From contig JABFXT010000472.1 in NCBI GenBank assembly GCA_013361595.1, forward strand, positions 1-12,138: 12,138 nt of DNA, read 5' to 3'. Shown here one piece after another: positions 3,261 through 11,462 of the stretch. The DNA comes from Nocardia sp. (GTDB lineage: Bacteria; Actinomycetota; Actinomycetes; Mycobacteriales; Mycobacteriaceae). Position 1 is the first letter of the stretch; each line of letters begins with the position of its first letter. Both the position numbers and the translations under genes were made by a program. The notes beneath the pieces were generated by a model. It was not told the DNA's origin and ran no database searches. It worked only from the letters and a program-made list of their open reading frames with translations.

Positions 3261-3292
3261 TACCCGGACCGCGGCCGGCGGCGATCAGTCGC
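3250..3292. terminator. Possible weak hairpin between convergent DinB-like and sigF genes
   Basis: GCGCGCTGAT near the DinB-like stop can pair with ATCAGTCGCGC at the sigF stop, with one bulged T. The intervening 22-base loop is itself rich in self-complementary GC. The stem includes both stop regions, so it may be a shared terminator, but the loop is long and there is no U-tract. Confidence 0.25.
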
Positions 3293-4136
3293 GCATCGCC
3301 TGATCGCGCAACCAGCCGAGCGTCCGCGACAGTATCCGTGAGATATGCATCTGTGAGACACCGAGTTCGTCGGCGATCTGCGACTGCGTGCGGGATTCGA
3401 AGAAACGCATCCGCAGAACCTGACGTTCCCGGTCGGACAGCTCGCCGAGCAACGGTTCGATCGCCAGATAATCCTCCAGCCAGCCGTAGGACGGCTCCTC
3501 CGCACCCAGCGACTCCACCAGCGGTAATGCCGAACTCTCGCTGTCCTCCCCGGCCGCGGGCGCGTCCAGGGACGACGCCTGATAGGCGTTACCGGCGATG
3601 AGCGCCTGCGTCACTTCCACCACATCGATATCGAGTTCCGCGGCGATCTCCTTGGCGCGCGGTACCCGCCCCAACCGCTGCGACAGGATCTCGACGGTGG
3701 GACCCAGGTTCAGCTGCAGTTCCTTGACTCGCCGCGGCACCCGGACCGACCAGGTGTTGTCCCGGAAATGGCGGCGGACCTCACCCATGACGGTGGGAAC
3801 GGCGAAGGACAGGAACGACGAACCGCGCGAGACGTCGAACCGGTCCACCGCGTTCACCAGACCCAGCCGGGCCACCTGCAGGAGATCGTCGTAGTTCTCG
3901 CCGCGACCGGAGAACTTGCGGGCGATGTGTTCGGCCAGCGGCAGACACCGCCGCATGATCTCCTCACGCAGCCCGGCGCCGGCCGGATCGCCCTCGGAAA
4001 GAGCGGCCAGTTTGCCGAACAAAGGCTCGATATTGTCGTAACTGTCGTTGCCGCGATGGCGACGCGAAGGTCCGGGGTCGGCCCGGGGTCCTTCATCCGC
4101 CATCGGCGCCTGCTCGGAACCAGCTGAACTCGACAT
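3285..4136 (-). CDS. sigF: RNA polymerase sigma factor of the SigB/SigF/SigG (group 3) stress family
   Basis: Alternative sigma factor directing RNA polymerase to GTTT/GGGTAT-type promoters of general-stress and stationary-phase genes. From this ATG it has 283 residues. Region 2, with core binding and -10 recognition, covers about 60-130 (DDLLQVARLGLVNAVDRFD, then FLSFAVPTVMGEVRRHFRD). Region 3 covers about 135-185, and region 4 with its helix-turn-helix about 233-280 (LSDRERQVLRMRF, SQIADELGVSQMHISRIL). The N-terminal about 35 residues are variable and low in complexity. The start is uncertain: ATG 4136, GTG 4151 and ATG 4103 are all in frame and none has a strong ribosome site. All three overlap the end of the anti-sigma gene (stop 4095-4093), so translational coupling is likely. 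The gene order anti-sigma then sigF matches mycobacterial usfX-sigF. Confidence 0.93.
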   Translation of the reverse strand: MSSSAGSEQAPMADEGPRADPGPSRRHRGNDSYDNIEPLFGKLAALSEGDPAGAGLREEIMRRCLPLAEHIARKFSGRGENYDDLLQVARLGLVNAVDRFDVSRGSSFLSFAVPTVMGEVRRHFRDNTWSVRVPRRVKELQLNLGPTVEILSQRLGRVPRAKEIAAELDIDVVEVTQALIAGNAYQASSLDAPAAGEDSESSALPLVESLGAEEPSYGWLEDYLAIEPLLGELSDRERQVLRMRFFESRTQSQIADELGVSQMHISRILSRTLGWLRDQAMRD

Positions 4137-4533
4137 CGGTCGGGTAACCACCGCTCGCCACGTCGTAGGGGTGCTGTACCACGCTGACCGAGCGGGTCAG
4201 CGTCCGGACGATATGCCAGCCGAACCCCTCCTGGTCCCGGAGGGAATCGACCTCCGAAACCGAGGTTACGCGCACTGTCATGCGATGCTCGTCGTAATCG
4301 AAGTCGCAGGTCAGACTCGAATCGGGAACGGCGGCGGCAATAAGCGATGTGGCCACTTCGTCGAGCGCGAGCCGGATATCGGTCACTTCGTCCAGACCGA
4401 AGTCGGCGATCAGCGATACCGTCTCGGCCAGCGCGCGCAACATCACCAGCTGCTCCTGCCGGGCCGGGATCCGTACGCCCACCGTCATATCCGCCGATGT
4501 CGTATACACGGACTCGGAGATACTCTCCGCCAT
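4093..4533 (-). CDS. rsbW: Anti-sigma factor, RsbW/UsfX-like HATPase domain
   Basis: Cytoplasmic GHKL-ATPase-fold protein expected to bind and silence the SigF encoded just downstream. From the chosen start it has 146 residues, the normal RsbW length. The fold is visible from about residue 17 (TVGVRIPAR), with the N-box helix at about 54-68 (RLALDEVATSLIAAA) and a Gly segment EGFGWHIVR at 102-110. The N-box keeps its Glu59, but the position normally occupied by Asn (ExxxN, a Mg/ATP ligand) is Ser63, so kinase activity is doubtful. The ATG at 4533 is preceded by GAGGTGG about 8 bases upstream. An in-frame GTG at 4662 would add 43 Gly/Pro/Arg-rich residues and would lie about 2 bases from the predicted SigF-dependent transcription start, so a leaderless longer form cannot be excluded. 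The 3' end overlaps sigF. Confidence 0.88.
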   Translation of the reverse strand: MAESISESVYTTSADMTVGVRIPARQEQLVMLRALAETVSLIADFGLDEVTDIRLALDEVATSLIAAAVPDSSLTCDFDYDEHRMTVRVTSVSEVDSLRDQEGFGWHIVRTLTRSVSVVQHPYDVASGGYPTDVEFSWFRAGADGG

Positions 4534-4670
4534 GCGCACCACCACCTCGTTCCTACCGCCCGCGCCACGGCGGGCAGGGGGGCGCCCGCCGGGCCCCGTC
4601 GTGCCCGTGACCGTCGGTGACGCCGCGGTTCGTCTGTCCTCGGATATCGGCCTGATTGTCACATGCGCAC

Positions 4671-4695
4671 ATACCCCGGTCGGAATCTCCGAAAC
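4671..4695 (-). promoter_or_regulatory. SigF/SigB-type promoter driving rsbW-sigF
   Basis: On the minus strand, GTTT (4695-4692), a 15-base spacer and GGGTAT (4676-4671) form an exact match to the SigB/SigF promoter class. It begins 11 bases beyond the end of the PAS-ANTAR gene and reads into the anti-sigma gene. Transcription should start near 4664, giving a leader of about 130 bases to the ATG at 4533. This indicates that SigF activates its own operon, as in Bacillus sigB and mycobacterial sigF. Confidence 0.75.
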
Positions 4696-4705
4696 ACCGC
4701 GCAGT

Positions 4706-5389
4706 TCAGGTGCGGTCGATCCGCTCGTGCACGGTCAGCAACAGATGATCGAATTCGGTGCGCAGACCGAGGCCGGCGTGCTCGACCGTGCGGACTTCGG
4801 CTACCAGCCGCTCCGCCAGCAGACGTAATTTGACGTTGGATTCCTGGGAACGCCAGATCAGGACGCGGAATGCCTGATCGGCACTGATCCCGTAGACGAG
4901 CATCAACGCGCCCTTGGCCTGTTCGATCACCGCGCGTGCGGCGTAGAGACCGGGCAGCGTGTCCTGCAGCGTCTCCTCGCGTTCCTCTGCCAATGTCTCG
5001 GTGAGATCCACGTAATAGCCGGCGCAGCCGACCACCGTGCCGTCCTCGTCGGTCATCGCATCGGCCACCACGATCACGGGTCTGGTGTGGCCCTCGAGAT
5101 CGACGATGCGGTGCCGGCTGCAGAAGGGCTGCGCATCGGCGACCGATTTCGCCAGCGCATTCGCCACCTGGTCCCGGTCGTCGGGGTGCTTGTGACCGAG
5201 CAGTAATTCGGTGCTGGGTGTCATCGGCTCGGCCGGATAGCCGTGCATCTGCGCGACTGCCTCCGACCACTCCCAGCGTTGTTCGGCGAACCAGAACCGG
5301 AAGGCCCCGGCGCACTGCGATACGCCGGCGATCGATTCCAGTAACTCGTCGTCCAGTTCGTCGGCGATTTCGCCGTGCTCTCGGGTCAC
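4706..5389 (-). CDS. PAS-ANTAR regulatory protein
   Basis: 227-residue cytoplasmic regulator with an N-terminal PAS sensor fold at about 29-130 and a C-terminal ANTAR domain at about 148-200. In the PAS part, FRFWFAEQRWEWSEAVAQMHGY and a later VGCAGYYVDLTE strand are typical PAS_3 features. The ANTAR part shows ARAVIEQAKGALMLVYGIS, the three-helix RNA-binding pattern. ANTAR proteins bind paired RNA hairpins and prevent transcription termination, with activity set by the attached sensor. The GTG at 5389 is used because the only internal ATGs fall inside the PAS domain; its ribosome site is weak. The gene lies between the STAS gene and the rsbW-sigF pair on the same strand, suggesting a signal input to the same stress circuit. 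No histidine kinase or receiver domain is present, so the signal probably enters through the PAS pocket. Confidence 0.87.
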   Translation of the reverse strand: MTREHGEIADELDDELLESIAGVSQCAGAFRFWFAEQRWEWSEAVAQMHGYPAEPMTPSTELLLGHKHPDDRDQVANALAKSVADAQPFCSRHRIVDLEGHTRPVIVVADAMTDEDGTVVGCAGYYVDLTETLAEEREETLQDTLPGLYAARAVIEQAKGALMLVYGISADQAFRVLIWRSQESNVKLRLLAERLVAEVRTVEHAGLGLRTEFDHLLLTVHERIDRT

Positions 5390-5423
5390 GGCTCGAGTAT
5401 CGACGGTTCCGGCGCGGAAAGCG

Positions 5424-5459
5424 ACCCCGTCCCAGCCTCTGGACCGGCCGGGACGGGGT
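5424..5459 (-). terminator. Strong GC hairpin between STAS and PAS-ANTAR genes
   Basis: ACCCCGTCCC (5424-5433) pairs exactly with GGGACGGGGT (5450-5459). After one A/C mismatch, three more pairs (5435-5437 with 5446-5448) extend the stem to 14 positions with an 8-base loop. It follows the STAS stop (5473) and precedes the PAS-ANTAR start (5389). It is therefore either a terminator of the STAS transcript or an attenuator for the next gene. No U-tract follows. Confidence 0.6.
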
Positions 5460-5472
5460 TACGGACGGCAGA

Positions 5473-5880
5473 TCAGCTCGCCAGCGCGGTCCGCAGTGTC
5501 GGGAAGTAGCGGAACTGCGGCCGTACCCCGGCTACCTCCAGTGCTCGTTCCACTTCCTTACGCCCGCTGACCACCCGCAGTTCGACCCCGGCCCGCCAGG
5601 CGTCGGCCTTGGCGTCGGCGAGCACGGCGGCGGCCCGGATGCTCATGAACGTGGTGGCCCGTAGGTCCAGCACCACCACCCGGCACAGCATCGAGCGGCA
5701 CCTGCCCAGCACGGTGCGCAGTTCGTCGTGGAGCACCGCGTCCAGTTCGCCTTCCACCCGAGCGATCACACAATCGGGATACTCGGTGCTACGGCGCGAC
5801 CACAGCCGCGCTGCCGCCGAAGGCCTCGGATCACGGCGCCGGTGTTGATCGACCTGGTACATAGCGGTGGTAACCGACAT
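5473..5880 (-). CDS. STAS-domain protein (anti-sigma-factor-antagonist-like), missing the usual phospho-serine
   Basis: 135-residue cytoplasmic protein with a STAS fold from about residue 36 (DCVIARVEGELDAVLHDELRTVL) to 133. Such proteins normally bind RsbW-type anti-sigma factors and free the sigma factor, and are switched off when RsbW phosphorylates a Ser in a D-S-S/T-G loop. Here the matching loop is TTFMSIRAAA (77-86). Aligned to FIDSTG, the Asp is Ser80, the phosphorylatable Ser is Ile81 and the Gly is Ala83. The protein therefore cannot be controlled in the standard way. A basic N-terminal segment (QHRRRDPRPSAAARLWSRR) precedes the domain. ATG 5880 follows GGGA at 5 bases; the frame stays open to 6054, but the extra residues look non-coding. 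Location next to PAS-ANTAR and rsbW-sigF supports a role in SigF control. Confidence 0.82.
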   Translation of the reverse strand: MSVTTAMYQVDQHRRRDPRPSAAARLWSRRSTEYPDCVIARVEGELDAVLHDELRTVLGRCRSMLCRVVVLDLRATTFMSIRAAAVLADAKADAWRAGVELRVVSGRKEVERALEVAGVRPQFRYFPTLRTALAS

Positions 5881-6109
5881 ATCAATCCCGTCCTGGTGGT
5901 GGGGATTTCCGGTGGCGTACGCGCTGGCGGGCAGATATCGGAGCGGAATCGTTTCCCGCTCGTCGAGCCCGAGCACCGGGCTACGCGGTACCGGGATCGG
6001 CTGCATGTTATCAACCTGCGGACCATTCTGGCACGGTCGGCCGACCCTGTACACCGCCGCGCGACCGGGGGATCTCCGCCCGGAAGCGGCCGCGCGGCCG
6101 GATCGCGAT
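5881..6109. other. Intergenic region upstream of the STAS gene
   Basis: I see no convincing gene here. Open frames on both strands lack family features. A 14-base perfect palindrome, CGGCCGCGCGGCCG, lies at 6087-6100. I found no SigF-type promoter facing the STAS gene. The minus-strand TAACAT near 6003-6008 is a possible -10 but has no matching -35. Confidence 0.4.
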
Positions 6110-6387: not shown

Positions 6388-7395
6388 ATGGTCGAAACAC
6401 TGTCCCCGAGCGAAGCGGCTGTCGTGCGCTGCCTGCCGATGCCCCGAGGCCCCCTGTCGGCGGCCGTCACGGACTTGCTGGCAGGTACGCCCGGCCGGCC
6501 GGTTCCCGGAGTTCCCGGCGGCCTCGACCCGTACGGCGAGGATTTCCAGCTGACGCTGCACACCTGCTACGAGCTGCACTACCAGGGTTTTCCGGGGGTG
6601 CACCCGGACTGGGAATGGGATCCAGGGCTACTGGGACTGCGCGCGGAGCTGGAACGCGAGTTCCGCGCCGCTCTCCAGGCCGAGGTACCCGGTGGCGACG
6701 ATGTCACGGCCGAACTGGACCGATTGCTCACGGTGCCCGCCTCCGGCGGCATTCCGGGCCGGTTGCGCGACGAGGGCGCCTGGTGGCAGATACGCGAATA
6801 CTTCGTCCATCGCTCGATCTACCACCATAAGGAAGCCGATCCGGTGGCGTGGGTGATCCCCCGGCTGCGGGGGCGGGCGAAAGCCGGGCTGGTGGCGATC
6901 GAGTTCGACGAGTTCGGCGGCGGCCACGGTGACCGTATCCATGCCCGCCTCTACGCCGACCTGATGCGCGGCGCCGGGCTGAACGGGGAGTATCTGCACT
7001 ATCTGGACGTGGTGCCCGCTCCCATGCTCGCACTGGTCGACATGATGTCGCTGTTCGGTCTGCATCGGTCGTTACGCGGTGCGATCGTCGGACATTTCGC
7101 GGCGGTCGAGATCACCTCATCCCCGGCCTCACGGCTGATGGTCGAGGCGCTGCACCGCTTCTCCGCCCATCCCGACTGCGTGCGCTTCTACAGCGAGCAC
7201 GTCACGGCCGACGCGGTCCACGAACAGGTGGTCCGCCGCGATGTGCTCGACGATCTGCTCGCCCGGGAACCCGGACTGGCCGAATCGGTGGTGTTCGGCA
7301 TCCAGGCCACCGATTTCCTCGAGGACCGGTGGGCCGCCGCTGTAGTCGATCGCTGGCACGCGGGTGAGAGCTCGCTGCGGACGACGGACCGGTGA
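6388..7395 (+). CDS. Iron-containing redox enzyme, heme-oxygenase-like diiron oxidase (HDO) family
   Basis: 335-residue all-helical protein of the iron-containing redox enzyme family (Haem_oxygenas_2/TENA-like fold). Known relatives such as UndA, BesC and SznF use a diiron centre and O2 to cleave or hydroxylate amino-acid- or fatty-acid-like substrates. Likely ligands and signature residues are Glu62 (CYELHYQGF), His141 and His146-147 (FVHRSIYHHKEADP), Asp174/Glu175 (IEFDEFGGG), His185 (DRIHARLYADL), Glu241 (AAVEIT) and His271, Asp275 and His278 (HVTADAVHE). The EFDEFGGG...H...LYADLM block is characteristic of this subgroup. ATG 6388 follows AAAGG (6377-6381) at 6 bases. It is the first gene of a tight operon and overlaps the methyltransferase gene by four bases (GTGA). 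The substrate is unknown. Confidence 0.87.
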   Translation: MVETLSPSEAAVVRCLPMPRGPLSAAVTDLLAGTPGRPVPGVPGGLDPYGEDFQLTLHTCYELHYQGFPGVHPDWEWDPGLLGLRAELEREFRAALQAEVPGGDDVTAELDRLLTVPASGGIPGRLRDEGAWWQIREYFVHRSIYHHKEADPVAWVIPRLRGRAKAGLVAIEFDEFGGGHGDRIHARLYADLMRGAGLNGEYLHYLDVVPAPMLALVDMMSLFGLHRSLRGAIVGHFAAVEITSSPASRLMVEALHRFSAHPDCVRFYSEHVTADAVHEQVVRRDVLDDLLAREPGLAESVVFGIQATDFLEDRWAAAVVDRWHAGESSLRTTDR

Positions 7396-8051
7396 GCCCG
7401 GTGCTGGTCCGAGTTCCCGGCGTCTACCGCCCCCAGCCGGATACCCGGCTGCTCGCCCGGGCGATGACCGATGCCGCATTGCCGCCGGGCGCTCGGGTGC
7501 TGGACGCGTGCACCGGTACCGGGGCGCTGGCCATCCACGCGGCGCGGTCCGGGGCGGCGGCGGTGACGGCGGTGGATCTCTCGCGTGCCGCACTGGCCTC
7601 GGCCTGGTTCAACAGCCGGCTCTACGGAGTGCGGCTGGAACTGCTGTGGGGCGATGTCACCCGGGTGGTCGAGGGCCGCACCTTCGACGTGGTGGTCGCG
7701 AACCCGCCGTATGTGCCGAGTACATCGCATCCACCCGAGGTGGGCCCGGCACGCGCCTGGGACGCGGGATGGCACGGCCGCCATCTGCTCGACCCACTGT
7801 GCGAAATGATGCCGCGTCTGCTCTGTACGGGCGGTACCGCGCTGATCGTGCACTCCGCGGTCTCCGGTATCGCCGCCACCCTCGTCGGACTGCGCGCGGG
7901 CGGCCTCAAGGCGACCGTCGTGGCGCGCACCGTCGTTCCCTTCGGTCCGGTGATGCGCAGCCGCGTCGAATGGCTCCGCGACCGCAGTCTGATCCAGCCC
8001 GAACAACAGCACGAGGAACTGGTGGTCATCCGTGCCGATCGAACCCGCTGA
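7392..8051 (+). CDS. HemK2/MTQ2-like SAM-dependent methyltransferase
   Basis: 219-residue class I methyltransferase. Near the N-terminus VYRPQPDTRLLA resembles the HemK2/MTQ2 signature (VYxPxxDTxLL). The SAM-binding motif I is VLDACTGTGALA at 37-48, with the acidic motif II at VTAVDLS (58-64). The catalytic NPPYVP (104-109) marks amide-nitrogen methyltransferases acting on glutamine or asparagine, as in PrmC/HemK. Family members methylate release-factor glutamine, but nothing here shows that substrate. Linked genes suggest a specialised target such as a peptide, protein or small amide. GTG 7392 overlaps the stop of the diiron-oxidase gene, indicating translational coupling. The 3' end overlaps the CDGSH gene by 20 bases. 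A separate housekeeping prmC is expected elsewhere in the genome. Confidence 0.88.
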   Translation: MSPVLVRVPGVYRPQPDTRLLARAMTDAALPPGARVLDACTGTGALAIHAARSGAAAVTAVDLSRAALASAWFNSRLYGVRLELLWGDVTRVVEGRTFDVVVANPPYVPSTSHPPEVGPARAWDAGWHGRHLLDPLCEMMPRLLCTGGTALIVHSAVSGIAATLVGLRAGGLKATVVARTVVPFGPVMRSRVEWLRDRSLIQPEQQHEELVVIRADRTR

Positions 8052-8388
8052 TCCGCCACCCGGCCCCGACGAATTGCTCGCCGCGATCCAGTGCCCCGGT
8101 GCCGCTGTCGGCAACGGCGAGACCGGGCAATCGGAGATTCCGGCTCCCGCTACGGCCGCGGACCGGCCGGAGCCGCCCGCGCCCGAGGTTCGCCGGGTCA
8201 CTTTCACGGCCGAGGGGCCGGCGCTGATCGAAGGACCACTGGAGGTGATCGCCGCGAACGGCGACCGTATCCTCGCCGACCGTTTCCTGGTCGCACTGTG
8301 TACCTGCAAACGATCCGGTAACTATCCGCTGTGCGATACCAGCCATCGCCGCCGGGCCCGGCCGGATACCGGCCGTGAAGGGAGGTAG
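8032..8388 (+). CDS. CDGSH-type [2Fe-2S] iron-sulfur protein
   Basis: 118-residue protein with one CDGSH domain at the C-terminus. The motif CTCKRSGNYPLCDTSH (90-105) fits C-X-C-X2-S-X3-P-X-C-D-X-S-H, giving the three-Cys/one-His cluster ligands Cys90, Cys92, Cys101 and His105. The usual Gly after Asp is Thr103. CDGSH clusters are redox-active and acid-labile and act in electron or cluster transfer. A likely role is to feed electrons or iron to the diiron oxidase encoded two genes upstream. About 50 Pro/Ala-rich residues (DPPPGPDELLAAIQC, then PAPATAADRPEPPAPE) precede the domain and may be a flexible tether. GTG 8032 lies inside the methyltransferase gene after GGTGGT. The stop is embedded in the next gene's ribosome site. 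Confidence 0.9.
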   Translation: MPIEPADPPPGPDELLAAIQCPGAAVGNGETGQSEIPAPATAADRPEPPAPEVRRVTFTAEGPALIEGPLEVIAANGDRILADRFLVALCTCKRSGNYPLCDTSHRRRARPDTGREGR

Positions 8389-8393
8389 CCGAA

Positions 8394-8627
8394 ATGTCAT
8401 CCATGGATCCCGACCCCGCCGAAACCCCCGATCTGGAGCCGGGCGGCGGAGTTCCGCCGGGCTCCACCCCACCGGATACCGCGCAGACCTCCGGGTTGTC
8501 GGCCGAGGAGCCGGCCACCCGCCACCGATTTCCGCGAACCGGGGTGCTCGCGGTCGCGCTGACGATCGTGCTGGTGGTGGCCTTCGCCGCGGTAGCGGTG
8601 GGTTTGGTGATAGCGGTCGTAGGTTGA
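8394..8627 (+). CDS. Small single-helix membrane protein, unrecognised
   Basis: 77-residue protein with a Pro/Glu/Gly-rich acidic N-terminal half (residues 1-42). A short basic stretch (RHRF-R, 43-48) follows, then one strongly hydrophobic segment at about 50-76 that ends at the C-terminus. The positive charges before the helix and the absence of any tail suggest a tail-anchored protein with the N-terminus in the cytoplasm. There is no signal-peptidase site or lipobox. A strong GGGAGGT ribosome site lies 7-8 bases before ATG 8394 and contains the TAG of the CDGSH gene, so the two are coupled. It may anchor an operon product at the membrane; no family was recognised. Confidence 0.75.
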   Translation: MSSMDPDPAETPDLEPGGGVPPGSTPPDTAQTSGLSAEEPATRHRFPRTGVLAVALTIVLVVAFAAVAVGLVIAVVG

Positions 8628-8658
8628 TTGGCGGCGCTGTTTCCGGGTAGCCCCCGGT

Positions 8659-9243
8659 ATGGCTCCGACCCATCAGCAATTGCTGCATGCGCTGACGCGA
8701 GCCGCGAACGCGTTGACACACCACGACGTGCCCTTCGCCGTGGCGGGCGGATGCGCGGTCTATGCCCGGGGCGGACCGCCTTCGGACCACGATGTCGATC
8801 TCTTCGTCAAACCCGCCGACTGTGCCCGGGCGCGCACCGAACTCGCGCGGGCGGGACTGCGGATCGCCGACGCCGCCGAGGACTGGCTCGTCAAGGCCTA
8901 CGACGGCAACACCCTCATCGATATCATCCACCGGCCGAACAACCGGGAAGTCGACGACGCACTCCTCGCGCGGGCCGAGGTCATGCGGGTGGGTCCGACG
9001 ATGGCACCGGTGGTGCACGGTACCGACCTGCTGGTCGACAAACTGCTCGTCTTCGACGCGCATCGGCTGGACCTGAGCCCGCTGCTGCGGATCTCCCGCG
9101 ACCTGCGCGAACAGGTGGACTGGCCGTCGGTGCGCGTACAGACCGAGCATTCGCCGTACGCGCGCGCTTTTCTGGGGCTGATCGACGATCTCGGGATCGC
9201 CGACACCCGCCCAGGTGATCGAGTATCGGGAAGGGGCGGATAG
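8659..9243 (+). CDS. Nucleotidyltransferase-fold protein (MNT-like superfamily)
   Basis: 194-residue protein with the polymerase-beta-type nucleotidyltransferase core. It shows the Gly-Gly loop VAGGCAVYARGG (28-39) followed by SDHDVDLFV (42-50) with Asp45 and Asp47 as the catalytic metal pair. A third acidic residue is at Asp88 (LIDIIH). Relatives transfer NMP or AMP to small molecules (aminoglycosides, lincosamides), proteins or RNA. The target here is unknown, and no HEPN-type partner is visible beside it, so a toxin-antitoxin role is not supported. Start ATG 8659 lies 31 bases after the membrane-protein stop and has only a weak ribosome site. The first residues MAPTHQQLLHALTRAANAL form the helix expected before the core. 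The stop abuts the BON-domain ATG directly. Confidence 0.8.
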   Translation: MAPTHQQLLHALTRAANALTHHDVPFAVAGGCAVYARGGPPSDHDVDLFVKPADCARARTELARAGLRIADAAEDWLVKAYDGNTLIDIIHRPNNREVDDALLARAEVMRVGPTMAPVVHGTDLLVDKLLVFDAHRLDLSPLLRISRDLREQVDWPSVRVQTEHSPYARAFLGLIDDLGIADTRPGDRVSGRGG

Positions 9244-9522
9244 ATGTCGCAGACCCACCACCGGCCGGCGGGACGACCACCGGAATATCTGGCCGCCGAA
9301 CTGCACCGAGCCCTGACCGAGGACCCCCGCACAGCCGAGCAGGGCGTACGGGTCCGCATCCGGGGGGACGTGGTGGTGCTCGACGGCGAGGTGAGTACCG
9401 CACAGCGGCGCCGCCTGCTGGAAACCGTGGTCCACGAGATCGCGCCGGACGCGCAGATCCACAACGACGTACACGTGACCGCGACACCCGGGCCGGGTGA
9501 ATGCGAGGACCTCGGTGATTGA
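9244..9522 (+). CDS. BON-domain protein without signal peptide
   Basis: 92-residue protein that is almost entirely one BON domain (about 14-79). It shows the helix EYLAAELHRALTEDP, the strand pair VRVRIRGDVVVLDGEV with the conserved Gly, the helix QRRRLLETVVHE and the final strand IHNDVHV. BON domains bind membrane lipids or peptidoglycan in many secreted proteins, and cytoplasmic stress proteins also contain them. No signal peptide or membrane segment is visible here, so a cytoplasmic location is likely. ATG 9244 follows the TAG of the nucleotidyltransferase gene with no gap, and AAGGGG lies 8-13 bases upstream inside that gene. Context suggests an accessory role within the operon; the ligand is unknown. 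Confidence 0.83.
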   Translation: MSQTHHRPAGRPPEYLAAELHRALTEDPRTAEQGVRVRIRGDVVVLDGEVSTAQRRRLLETVVHEIAPDAQIHNDVHVTATPGPGECEDLGD

Positions 9523-9546
9523 CACCGGGCGGAAGGGAGCACACCG

Positions 9547-10302
9547 ATGCGGATCGCCGCTGTGGGGGATGTTCATCTGGGGACCGACTCGGGGGGCATG
9601 CTGCGCCCCACGCTGCGCGGACTACCCGAACACGCCGATGTACTGCTGCTGGCCGGCGATCTGACCAATCACGGGACGCTGCCGGAGGCGGAAGTGGTGG
9701 CGGCGGAATTCACCGATCTCGGCGTCCCGGTGATCGCGGTCCTCGGAAACCACGACCATCACAGCGATCTCCAGGAGGAGATCACCGTCGTGCTGGGCGA
9801 GGCGGGGATCACGGTCCTCGAGGGCAGTGCCACCACGGTAACCGTCGGTGATCGAACGCTCGGTGTCGCGGGCACCAAGGGATTCGGCGGCGGTTTCGCG
9901 GGCAAATGCGCCAGCGTGTTCGGGGAACACCTGATGCGCGAGTTCGCCGGGCACACCGTAGACCTGGCCGCCGGCCTGGATACCGCGTTGGCGGGTCTGG
10001 ACACCGATATCACGGTGGCCCTGACCCATTACTCGCCCGTCAGCGACACACTGCACGGTGAACCGCGGGAGATCTATCCGTTCCTGGGGTCCTACCTGCT
10101 CGGTGAGCCCATCGATACACACGGTGCCGATCTGGCGCTGCACGGCCACGCCCATGCCGGTACCGAACGCGGCAGTACCCCGGGCGGTATCCGGGTCCGC
10201 AATGTCGCCCAGCCGGTGATCCGTTCCGCTTTCGCGGTGTACGAACTGCATCCGCGACCGGCCGGGGAATCCGAGCGCGCGGAGACCGCGCTGACCGGAT
10301 GA
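9547..10302 (+). CDS. Calcineurin-like metallophosphoesterase
   Basis: 251-residue dinuclear-metal phosphoesterase. All family motifs are present in order: GDVH (7-10, Asp8 and His10), GDLTNHG (37-43), GNHDH (68-72), THYSP (160-164, His161) and GHAH (200-203, His201 and His203). The enzyme should hydrolyse phosphomonoesters or phosphodiesters (nucleotides, cyclic nucleotides, lipids or nucleic acid). The substrate cannot be deduced. There is no signal peptide, so it is cytoplasmic. ATG 9547 follows GGAAGGGAG (9531-9539) at 7 bases. It is the last gene of the plus-strand operon, 24 bases after the BON gene, and is followed by hairpins at 10325-10360. Placement after a nucleotidyltransferase raises the possibility of a matched nucleotidylation and phosphodiester-removal pair. 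Confidence 0.92.
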   Translation: MRIAAVGDVHLGTDSGGMLRPTLRGLPEHADVLLLAGDLTNHGTLPEAEVVAAEFTDLGVPVIAVLGNHDHHSDLQEEITVVLGEAGITVLEGSATTVTVGDRTLGVAGTKGFGGGFAGKCASVFGEHLMREFAGHTVDLAAGLDTALAGLDTDITVALTHYSPVSDTLHGEPREIYPFLGSYLLGEPIDTHGADLALHGHAHAGTERGSTPGGIRVRNVAQPVIRSAFAVYELHPRPAGESERAETALTG

Positions 10303-10369: not shown

Positions 10370-10798
10370 CTATTGCGCGAAAGCGGCCTCGATACCGTCG
10401 AACCAGGCCGCTTCCTCGATCAGCCGGGTGCTGCGCCAGCCGTCGGGGGTGCGGGCCAGATCGTGGTTGTACCAGCCGCCGCAGGTGAACTGCTTTCCCG
10501 GCGACACGATCATCGGATTGAAGAACATCGCCCGCACCTTCGCGCTGTCCCCGTCGAGTTCGACCGCGATATTGGAGATGAAATGCTGTGTGCAGGTGAA
10601 CAGGCTCAGCTGTTCGGTCAGCCGGGCCACCACGGTCTCCCGATCGCCGACCGGCCCGCCCGCGGTGCTGTAGTCGATATGCGCGTCGGCGGTGAACACC
10701 GACCGGTACAGCTCCCAATCCTTGCTGTCGACGGCGGTGGCGTAGCGGGTGAGCAGATCGGTGATCTCGAACCGGTCGGCGAGGGTCGCTGAATCCAT
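10370..10798 (-). CDS. Second SnoaL-like (NTF2 fold) protein
   Basis: 142-residue SnoaL-like protein. The N-terminus has the typical LADRFEITDLLTRYATAVDSKDWELYRSVF pattern of two helices with an Asp and a Trp. Beta strands ending in the WYNHDLARTPDGWR segment follow, and then a C-terminal helix. Relatives act as isomerases, dehydratases or hydroxylases on steroid- or polyketide-like substrates, or are small binding proteins. It is a distant paralogue of the protein at 2060-2539, with similar architecture but few identical residues. ATG 10798 starts the fold. A GGAGGG directly before it is too close for normal pairing, so the start may be leaderless or at the in-frame TTG/GTG a few codons upstream. 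The DUF1992 gene lies 46 bases upstream on the same strand. Confidence 0.8.
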   Translation of the reverse strand: MDSATLADRFEITDLLTRYATAVDSKDWELYRSVFTADAHIDYSTAGGPVGDRETVVARLTEQLSLFTCTQHFISNIAVELDGDSAKVRAMFFNPMIVSPGKQFTCGGWYNHDLARTPDGWRSTRLIEEAAWFDGIEAAFAQ

Positions 10799-10844
10799 CC
10801 CTCCATCCAACCGCACCGGCGGTATCGCCGGGTGGGATCGGCGT

Positions 10845-11363
10845 TCAGCGACCGCGGAAGATCCGGCGCCATCGCGGCACCGCGGTCGGCGTGTGCTCGT
10901 CGCGGCCCGGCCGACCGCTATCCCGGACGGTCTCCGCGGTGGTGGCTCCGGGCGCGCCCGCGACGTTGTCCCTCCACTCCCGGACGACTTCGTCGGCATC
11001 GACCGGAGCGATCGGAATCTGCGGTCCGGCCGGCATCCGCAACCAGTCGACGATCCGGCGATTGAGTTCGGTGACCGTCGAGCGCACCTCGGCCTCGGAA
11101 CCGGCATCACGCACGGTCTCCGGTAACCGTTCCACATCGCGCCGCAACAGCAGCGAAGGCGGCAGCATCGCGTCGCCACTCACCCCTTCGCGGCGCAGGT
11201 AGTCGCGCAGCCAGGCATTCTCGTCGTGGTACGGGTTACCCGCACCCGGCAACGGTTTACCGGCACCCGGAAGATTCTCGAATTCGCCGCGCTCGGTGGC
11301 TTCCCTGATCTTGCGATCGACCCAGGACTCGAAGTCGACTCCCGCGGGCTTGCGCTCGGCCAT
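10845..11363 (-). CDS. DUF1992 / DnaJ-homologue-C28-type protein
   Basis: 172-residue cytoplasmic protein. The N-terminal block FESWVDRKIREATERGEFENLPGAGKPL (about 10-37) is the diagnostic DUF1992 sequence, continuing to NPYHDENAWLRDYLRREG. A helical middle part (about 65-115) contains LPPSLLLRRDVERLPETV and ends in VTELNRRIVDWLR. The C-terminal about 45 residues are variable, with a basic end (RWRRIFRGR). The family function is unknown; the eukaryotic homologue DNAJC28 carries the same domain. ATG 11363 is chosen because GAGGAG lies 5 bases upstream; the in-frame GTG at 11369 is too close to it. It may be cotranscribed with the downstream SnoaL-like gene. The frame remains open into that gene, but the stop at 10845 ends this one. 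Confidence 0.88.
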   Translation of the reverse strand: MAERKPAGVDFESWVDRKIREATERGEFENLPGAGKPLPGAGNPYHDENAWLRDYLRREGVSGDAMLPPSLLLRRDVERLPETVRDAGSEAEVRSTVTELNRRIVDWLRMPAGPQIPIAPVDADEVVREWRDNVAGAPGATTAETVRDSGRPGRDEHTPTAVPRWRRIFRGR

Positions 11364-11462
11364 CGTCACTCCTCACCGTCTCCCACCACGGTAACGCTCC
11401 CGCCGGGACCGGCGCGTACGGACGACCCGCCGCACTACGGGACACCCCACCAGCGAGCCCGG

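Follow-up and report, generated by a model that had tools for sequence, protein, structure and literature searches.

Actinobacterial heme-oxygenase-like diiron enzymes neighboring a CDGSH protein and a HemK2-type methyltransferase suggest an undescribed stress pathway

Does a run of seven same-strand genes in Nocardia encode a single pathway and, if only part of the run belongs together, what would that part do? The question is raised by a 12,138-nucleotide stretch of Nocardia sp. (contig JABFXT010000472.1; the whole stretch analyzed is called the window), in which a sequence-only reading had proposed a seven-gene operon centered on a heme-oxygenase-like dimetal (diiron) enzyme (HDO), an amide-type methyltransferase (MT), and a CDGSH redox protein. 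The open reading frame (ORF) list contains the seven plus-strand genes with junctions of -4, -20, +5, +31, 0, and +24 bases exactly as claimed, and the claimed domain families agree with Pfam and NCBIfam, the fourth gene encoding a DUF6480 (PF20088) protein. Across genomes, HDO, MT, and CDGSH remain close together although the gene order was reshuffled repeatedly, and they often lie beside genes of the stress response, suggesting an undescribed stress pathway. The gene families themselves are all already named.

Neighborhood and co-occurrence of HDO, MT, and CDGSH

The three genes lie in the window as follows, with the HDO stop overlapping the MT start by 4 bases and MT and CDGSH overlapping by 20 bases.

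6388..7395, plus strand: HDO, heme-oxygenase-like dimetal (diiron) enzyme, 335 amino acids (aa); Haem_oxygenas_2 (PF14518), 189 bits
7392..8051, plus strand: MT, HemK2/MTQ2-type NPPY N-methyltransferase, 219 aa; Pfam MTS/PrmA-type; GTG start
8032..8388, plus strand: CDGSH (NEET-type) [2Fe-2S] protein, 118 aa; zf-CDGSH (PF09360); motif CTCKRSGNYPLCDTSH

From a one-genome-per-species scan, the best 80 of 552 confirmed HDO loci were taken with up to 6 kb fetched on either side of HDO; as these 80 are the closest relatives, fractions among them are not valid for all HDOs. The nearest named relative found was N. sienata (HDO 84% identical). Profiles built from hits placed CDGSH in 79/80 loci, the most frequent neighbor of HDO, and MT in 72/80. 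A second set of 40 longer stretches from further genomes, including 31 outside the window's class, gave 120 loci in all, among which no gene cluster beyond the three exceeded 34. HDO converged on a CDGSH-MT pair in 40 of the 80 loci, 24 had the order of the window, and 16 were other or partial layouts. A quick HDO tree, with 25 of its 77 inner branches starred, requires 15 changes to account for the nine layouts, counting a gene missing from the stretch as a change, and six to account for the presence of MT; the MT match of L145 (65 bits) was scored as MT in the neighbor table of the 40 stretches and not in the layout-change count. No more than 350 bases separated the CDGSH end from the MT stop in 68 of the 75 loci carrying both genes on one strand.

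Co-occurrence was analyzed in 296 genomes drawn across the phylum, with HDO matches in 50, MT profile matches (E<=1e-40) in 22, and CDGSH profile matches (E<=1e-8) in 93. HDO was present in 21/22 MT genomes (3.7 expected; hypergeometric 1.8e-17), in 6/7 MT genomes without the window's class (31 HDO genomes among 270; p 9e-6), and in 37/93 CDGSH genomes (p 9e-12), all three values ignoring relatedness. The lone exception, G253, is 81% complete with partial MT matches on two contigs, and a looser MT cut-off displayed a gap between 154 and 105 bits. Of the 21 genomes with both genes, 16 have MT no more than 5 kb from HDO, three have it 171-223 kb away, and two carry it on another contig, while a hand count found CDGSH within 5 kb of HDO in 32/50 HDO genomes. 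The neighborhood kept across many genera and this co-occurrence both support the proposal that HDO, MT, and CDGSH belong together.

Sequence and fold of the three proteins

The window's HDO has the heme-oxygenase-like helical fold of the HDO superfamily and the conserved start motif LPxPRGPLS. Its predicted metal residues E149, E175, H185, E241, H271, D275, and H278 were invariant in 30 HDO sequences (29 fetched relatives, from the 50 HDO genomes, and the window), and each pairs with an identical SznF residue at offset 40, giving the superfamily set of three His and three to four carboxylates; we take the aligned SznF residues to be its metal ligands. A set of three His and four carboxylates (3H/4C) has been described for HDOs (PMC13108848; this and the other papers cited by PMC number are used for the parts covered). 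The metal residues do not decide the N-oxygenase subtype, because the fourth carboxylate aligns to Glu in HrmI too, which is listed as 3H/3C (PMC13108848). The nearest folds among structural matches were substrate N-oxygenases, and the alignments gave 14-19% identity to HrmI, SznF, and RohS. The window's HDO lacks the cupin domain of SznF, and the window-type HDO differs from all three enzymes in its stress-island setting and in its CDGSH neighbor, none being mentioned for them in the parts of the literature covered. Two HDO genes stand side by side and divergent at L128:8174-11255, a stretch with no CDGSH or MT match.

The NPPY motif claimed for MT was located at residues 104-107 and is invariant in an alignment of the window with 31 of 34 picked relatives (L074, L084, and L145 omitted), and the MT start VYxPxxDTxLL is likewise HemK2-like. 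The NCBIfam HemK2/MTQ2 model TIGR00537 was barely passed by the window MT (87.5 bits versus a cut-off of 87) and matched by 31/32 aligned members at E<=1e-20, while the PrmC cut-off was missed (89.6 versus 199.1 bits); a better PrmC-like match of 168 bits, likewise under the cut-off, was found elsewhere in the window's genome. The top structural matches were KMT9/N6AMT1, followed by PrmC and the peptide methyltransferase AerE. MT thus has NPPY and fold in common with HemK2/N6AMT1/MTQ2 and PrmC but differs in being nearly confined to HDO genomes and usually adjoining CDGSH.

The structural matches of MT also bear on a maturation or modification role, in which CDGSH would supply the HDO diiron site with iron or a cluster, and MT would methylate a side chain (glutamine or another) in HDO, in CDGSH, or in some other protein. 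The usual direct adjacency of MT and CDGSH and the labile diiron sites of many HDOs (PMC13108848) agree with such a role, which we nevertheless regard as distinctly unlikely given that 29/50 HDO genomes manage without MT and that a frequent GCS2 ligase (below) points to a small molecule.

The CDGSH motif reads CDTSH in the window with the 3-Cys/1-His pattern intact, and PF09360 matched with 54.7 bits. The cluster motif CxCxxSxxxPxCDx(S/T)H is present, its residues being invariant or nearly so in an alignment of the window with 27 of 102 loci with CDGSH hits. The 3-Cys/1-His motif is common to the mitoNEET-type CDGSH/NEET proteins, from which the protein differs in reading CDTSH in most of the 80 close loci, in being short, and in showing no membrane anchor on inspection by eye.

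On Kitasatospora and Streptomyces plasmids, the RefSeq names of the three products are "iron-containing redox enzyme family protein" (HDO), "HemK2/MTQ2 family protein methyltransferase" (MT), and "CDGSH iron-sulfur domain-containing protein". The Streptomyces plasmid locus (L153:1701-5534) has a gas-vesicle cluster a few kb from the HDO-CDGSH-MT set and an IS3 transposase after the set.

Further neighbors and the general-stress setting

The remaining genes of the seven-gene run, and a SigF-like motif within it, are:

8394..8627, plus strand: DUF6480 (PF20088) small protein, 77 aa; one C-terminal hydrophobic stretch by eye; clade-local, outside the conserved unit
8626..8649, plus strand: SigF-like motif GATT-N15-GGGTA, 9 bases ahead of the nucleotidyltransferase start; one mismatch to GTTT-N15-GGGTA
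8659..9243, plus strand: nucleotidyltransferase, NTP_transf_5 (PF14907) type, 194 aa; clade-local
9244..9522, plus strand: BON-domain protein (Pfam), 92 aa; clade-local
9547..10302, plus strand: calcineurin-like metallophosphoesterase (Metallophos, Pfam), 251 aa; clade-local

Matches to these four genes were identified in 4, 4, 4, and 3 of the 80 loci, respectively, and all four together only in L032, L034, and L035 (N. sienata, N. flavorosea, and N. carnea); the fourth close locus, L036, stops after CDGSH and is uninformative on them. The GATT-N15-GGGTA form before the nucleotidyltransferase is common to the window and the three other Nocardia, and the M. smegmatis SigF table also holds short motif-to-start distances (PMC4694148). 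One operon for all seven genes, in a pathway whose fifth and seventh products would put on and take off nucleotidyl or phosphate groups, had been proposed and agrees with the short junctions in the window and the complete set in three related Nocardia. The presence of genes 4-7 in at most 4/80 loci and the promoter-like motif of the nucleotidyltransferase-BON-phosphoesterase block speak against both the single operon and the membership of the nucleotidyltransferase and phosphoesterase in the unit, so that the conserved seven-gene unit was rejected as largely refuted and the pathway built on it is highly improbable.

SnoaL-like and DJC28-domain genes follow the seven genes convergently (10370-11369, minus strand) and are also found near the locus in N. 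sienata, N. flavorosea, and N. carnea. The window contained no tRNA genes and no Rfam RNA at gathering score. Anti-phage defense was considered and rejected: PADLOC matches were partial and limited to MT (mad2 over 139 residues; type II and orphan methyltransferases) and the phosphoesterase (PDC-S10), with no match for the other five genes and no gene set of any one system.

A YbdK/GCS2 carboxylate-amine ligase is a more frequent fourth neighbor than genes 4-7. GCS2 (PF04107) was found near HDO in 30/80 and 5/40 loci of the two sets, lying upstream of it with the same orientation in 29 and 2, and one member is labeled YbdK family carboxylate-amine ligase in RefSeq; MT is also present in four of the five GCS2 loci of the second set (L119, L125, L126, and L136). 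No GCS2 was found in the window, and the only match in the window's own genome (78% complete) sits on another contig. In several loci the HDO frame extends far upstream; these extensions looked like shadow frames, and in L076 and L045 the real upstream gene is GCS2. A gene annotated as dimethylargininase lies between GCS2 and HDO on the Kitasatospora plasmid (L152:7121-7942); the arginine substrate it hints at was discarded, the gene occurring in 0/120 other loci. An FMN reductase gene was identified in 16/80 and 1/40 loci, including an NADPH-dependent FMN reductase immediately upstream of HDO in L032-L036 (N. sienata and relatives; L032:5333-5938), and none at that place in the window, where other sequence stands. 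Loci with a family-21-like glycosyltransferase were L113, L114, L118, L121-L124, L128, L129, L131, and L133, with the gene just downstream of HDO on the same strand in 10 of these 11.

Divergently upstream of HDO (3285-6054, minus strand), the window encodes a regulatory gene set:

3285..4151, minus strand: sigma factor with sigma-70 regions 2, 3, and 4; SigF/SigB type by reading and homologues
4093..4662, minus strand: HATPase_c_2 protein, RsbW-like anti-sigma kinase by reading
4672..4695, minus strand: exact GTTT-N15-GGGTA, 9 bases ahead of the RsbW-like ORF
4706..5389, minus strand: PAS-ANTAR regulator
5473..6054, minus strand: STAS-domain protein, anti-sigma-factor antagonist type

A SigF homologue lay within 6 kb of HDO in 4 of the 15 window-class genomes with HDO and MT (0.16 expected from counts and sizes), namely G000, G050, G288, and G182, two of them from one genus, and SigF matches occurred in 15/80 loci. 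The strict motif GTTT-N14-17-GGGTA was found before 6/79 HDO genes versus 85/981 other genes of the same loci and 0.1/79 base-shuffled HDO upstreams, and a relaxed motif before 19/79 HDO genes versus 183/981 others and 2.75 in shuffles. Because the rate before HDO is far above the shuffles but hardly above the neighbor genes, the islands look SigF-controlled as a whole. HDO genes preceded by such a motif come from several genera. In six Mycobacteriaceae loci, the forms GTTT-GGG[TA]A before HDO and GTTT-GGG[CA]A before MT were each found in 5/6, counts made without a control.

In a sigF mutant of M. smegmatis, MSMEG_1771 ("methylase, putative"), MSMEG_1772, and MSMEG_1773 were down 17- to 86-fold (log2 -4.09 to -6.43), with SigF motifs 29 bases before MSMEG_1771 and 11 before MSMEG_1773 and the same form 696 bases before MSMEG_1772 (PMC4694148). 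The three were also up in log-phase "cycled" (repeatedly spray-dried) M. smegmatis at a probability of 95-99% (PMC5445863), and MSMEG_1773 appears as an uncharacterized protein in PMC7390352 and PMC5656591. The sigF-mutant pattern fits an MT-CDGSH pair converging on HDO, and MSMEG_1771-1773 would then be the triad; this identity could not be proved, the published MSMEG_1773 promoter sequence having no match in sets of 396 and 198 genomes that possibly lack M. smegmatis. The setting of the HDO locus looks like a general-stress (SigF/SigB-type) island, and the window's own genes may be under stress control as well.

The same data could mean that the genes cluster merely as members of a SigF/SigB regulon with no common pathway, as the motif is common throughout the loci (85/981 other genes) and other stress-regulon families are frequent too (SDR in 24, hemerythrin in 13, and FMN reductase in 16 of 80 loci). 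Such an arrangement of bystanders appears quite improbable in view of the absence of any other gene cluster above 34/120 loci, the near-constant presence of HDO with MT even when unlinked, and the proximity kept through many layout changes.

Proposed roles and known systems

HDO, CDGSH, and the HemK2-type MT may work together as a single module within the general stress response of actinobacteria, a tentative reading to which we give slightly less than even confidence. Its direct support comes from the neighborhood, the co-occurrence even when unlinked, the fold and metal residues, and the stress-island setting. HDO would most likely be a diiron enzyme of the N-oxygenase type whose target is an amine, guanidine, or amide group in a peptide or in a molecule derived from an amino acid, and MT would methylate a nitrogen of the same substrate, as in the putative oxidation-methylation unit of the sequence-only reading. 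The E. coli flavin reductase belongs to another family than the FMN reductases near HDO. Since CDGSH is the most frequent neighbor of HDO and mitoNEET is reduced by FMN, NADH, and E. coli flavin reductase (PMC9490426), CDGSH would most likely hand single electrons to the diiron site of HDO after being itself reduced by a flavin reductase. The GCS2 family makes amide bonds and the glycosyltransferase occurs in loci without MT, so MT and GCS2 may act on the same small molecule, which the YbdK/GCS2 ligase of many genomes would make by joining an amino acid via an amide bond.

A more specific form of this proposal, in which CDGSH is a dedicated HDO electron donor in a general-stress pathway where ligation, N-oxygenation, and N-methylation of a compound derived from an amino acid yield a new protective metabolite across Actinobacteria, with a glycosylated variant in the MT-less glycosyltransferase loci, is possible but rather unlikely. 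A published parallel to such a pair is MboA/MboB of mangotoxin biosynthesis (PMC13185094), likewise an HDO with a dedicated Fe2S2-containing redox partner, encoded alongside amino-acid ligases in one cluster and described by its authors as possibly the first characterized dedicated HDO-redox-partner pair and the only such pair met in the literature covered (PMC13185094; PMC13108848). MboB is a flavin and Fe2S2 NAD(P)H reductase, whereas the candidate partner here is a small CDGSH protein; the HemK2-type MT is additional to the MboA/MboB arrangement, and the ligase neighbor is GCS2 rather than ATP-grasp. Among the papers listed from the open-licence PMC literature, none was recognizable as work on HDO with CDGSH or with this MT.

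The main rival to the metabolite pathway is a DtpC-like system limiting O2/H2O2, in which a flavin reductase-CDGSH-HDO electron chain would consume O2 or H2O2 or keep iron safe during drying or oxidative stress, with MT an accessory and no metabolite made. DtpC of Acinetobacter, described as the one HDO-family protein tied to desiccation or oxidative stress, is an HDO-fold protein in a stress setting that protects dried cells and limits their H2O2, requiring the metal residues E143, H153, and H232 (PMC13232832). The islands here resemble stress islands, and MSMEG_1771-1773, if they are the triad, are up in repeatedly spray-dried M. smegmatis (PMC5445863). The likeness to DtpC is by description and not by sequence, its operon partner is katE, and the main text of PMC13232832 mentions neither CDGSH nor a methyltransferase. 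With substrate N-oxygenases as the closest folds to HDO, and an amide-type MT and a carboxylate-amine ligase making little sense in a pure scavenger, we consider this defense role unlikely.

Several observations weigh against the three-gene module and its proposed roles. MT occurs with HDO, yet HDO exists without this MT in 29/50 HDO genomes, and in 18/50 the 5 kb around HDO lack a CDGSH match at E<=1e-8, so neither gene is a universal requirement. Because HDO-linked genes served to build the MT and CDGSH models, HDO-linked matches are favored, and the co-occurrence statistics ignore relatedness. If only well-supported branches count, fewer than 15 layout changes are required (5, not 10, for the commonest layout). 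Fusions of HDO with CDGSH or of CDGSH with MT were not noticed, though they were not systematically sought. The SigF motif marks HDO hardly more than its neighbors, and the only SigF site found ahead of HDO in the window has one mismatch and lies 254 bases from the gene. According to a review, no protein effector is required by the HDOs characterized to date (PMC13108848), and 11/40 loci carry the glycosyltransferase near HDO, none with MT in the stretch. GCS2 and the FMN reductase may be stress-regulon bystanders, the window having neither.

CDGSH kept beside HDO over many actinobacterial families would be a second candidate HDO redox partner and offers a possible job for bacterial CDGSH proteins. 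The locus also places HDO in what appears to be the response to general stress in Nocardia, mycobacteria, and relatives of Streptomyces, beside the recent DtpC report, and the module predicts a metabolite or protein modification not yet known.

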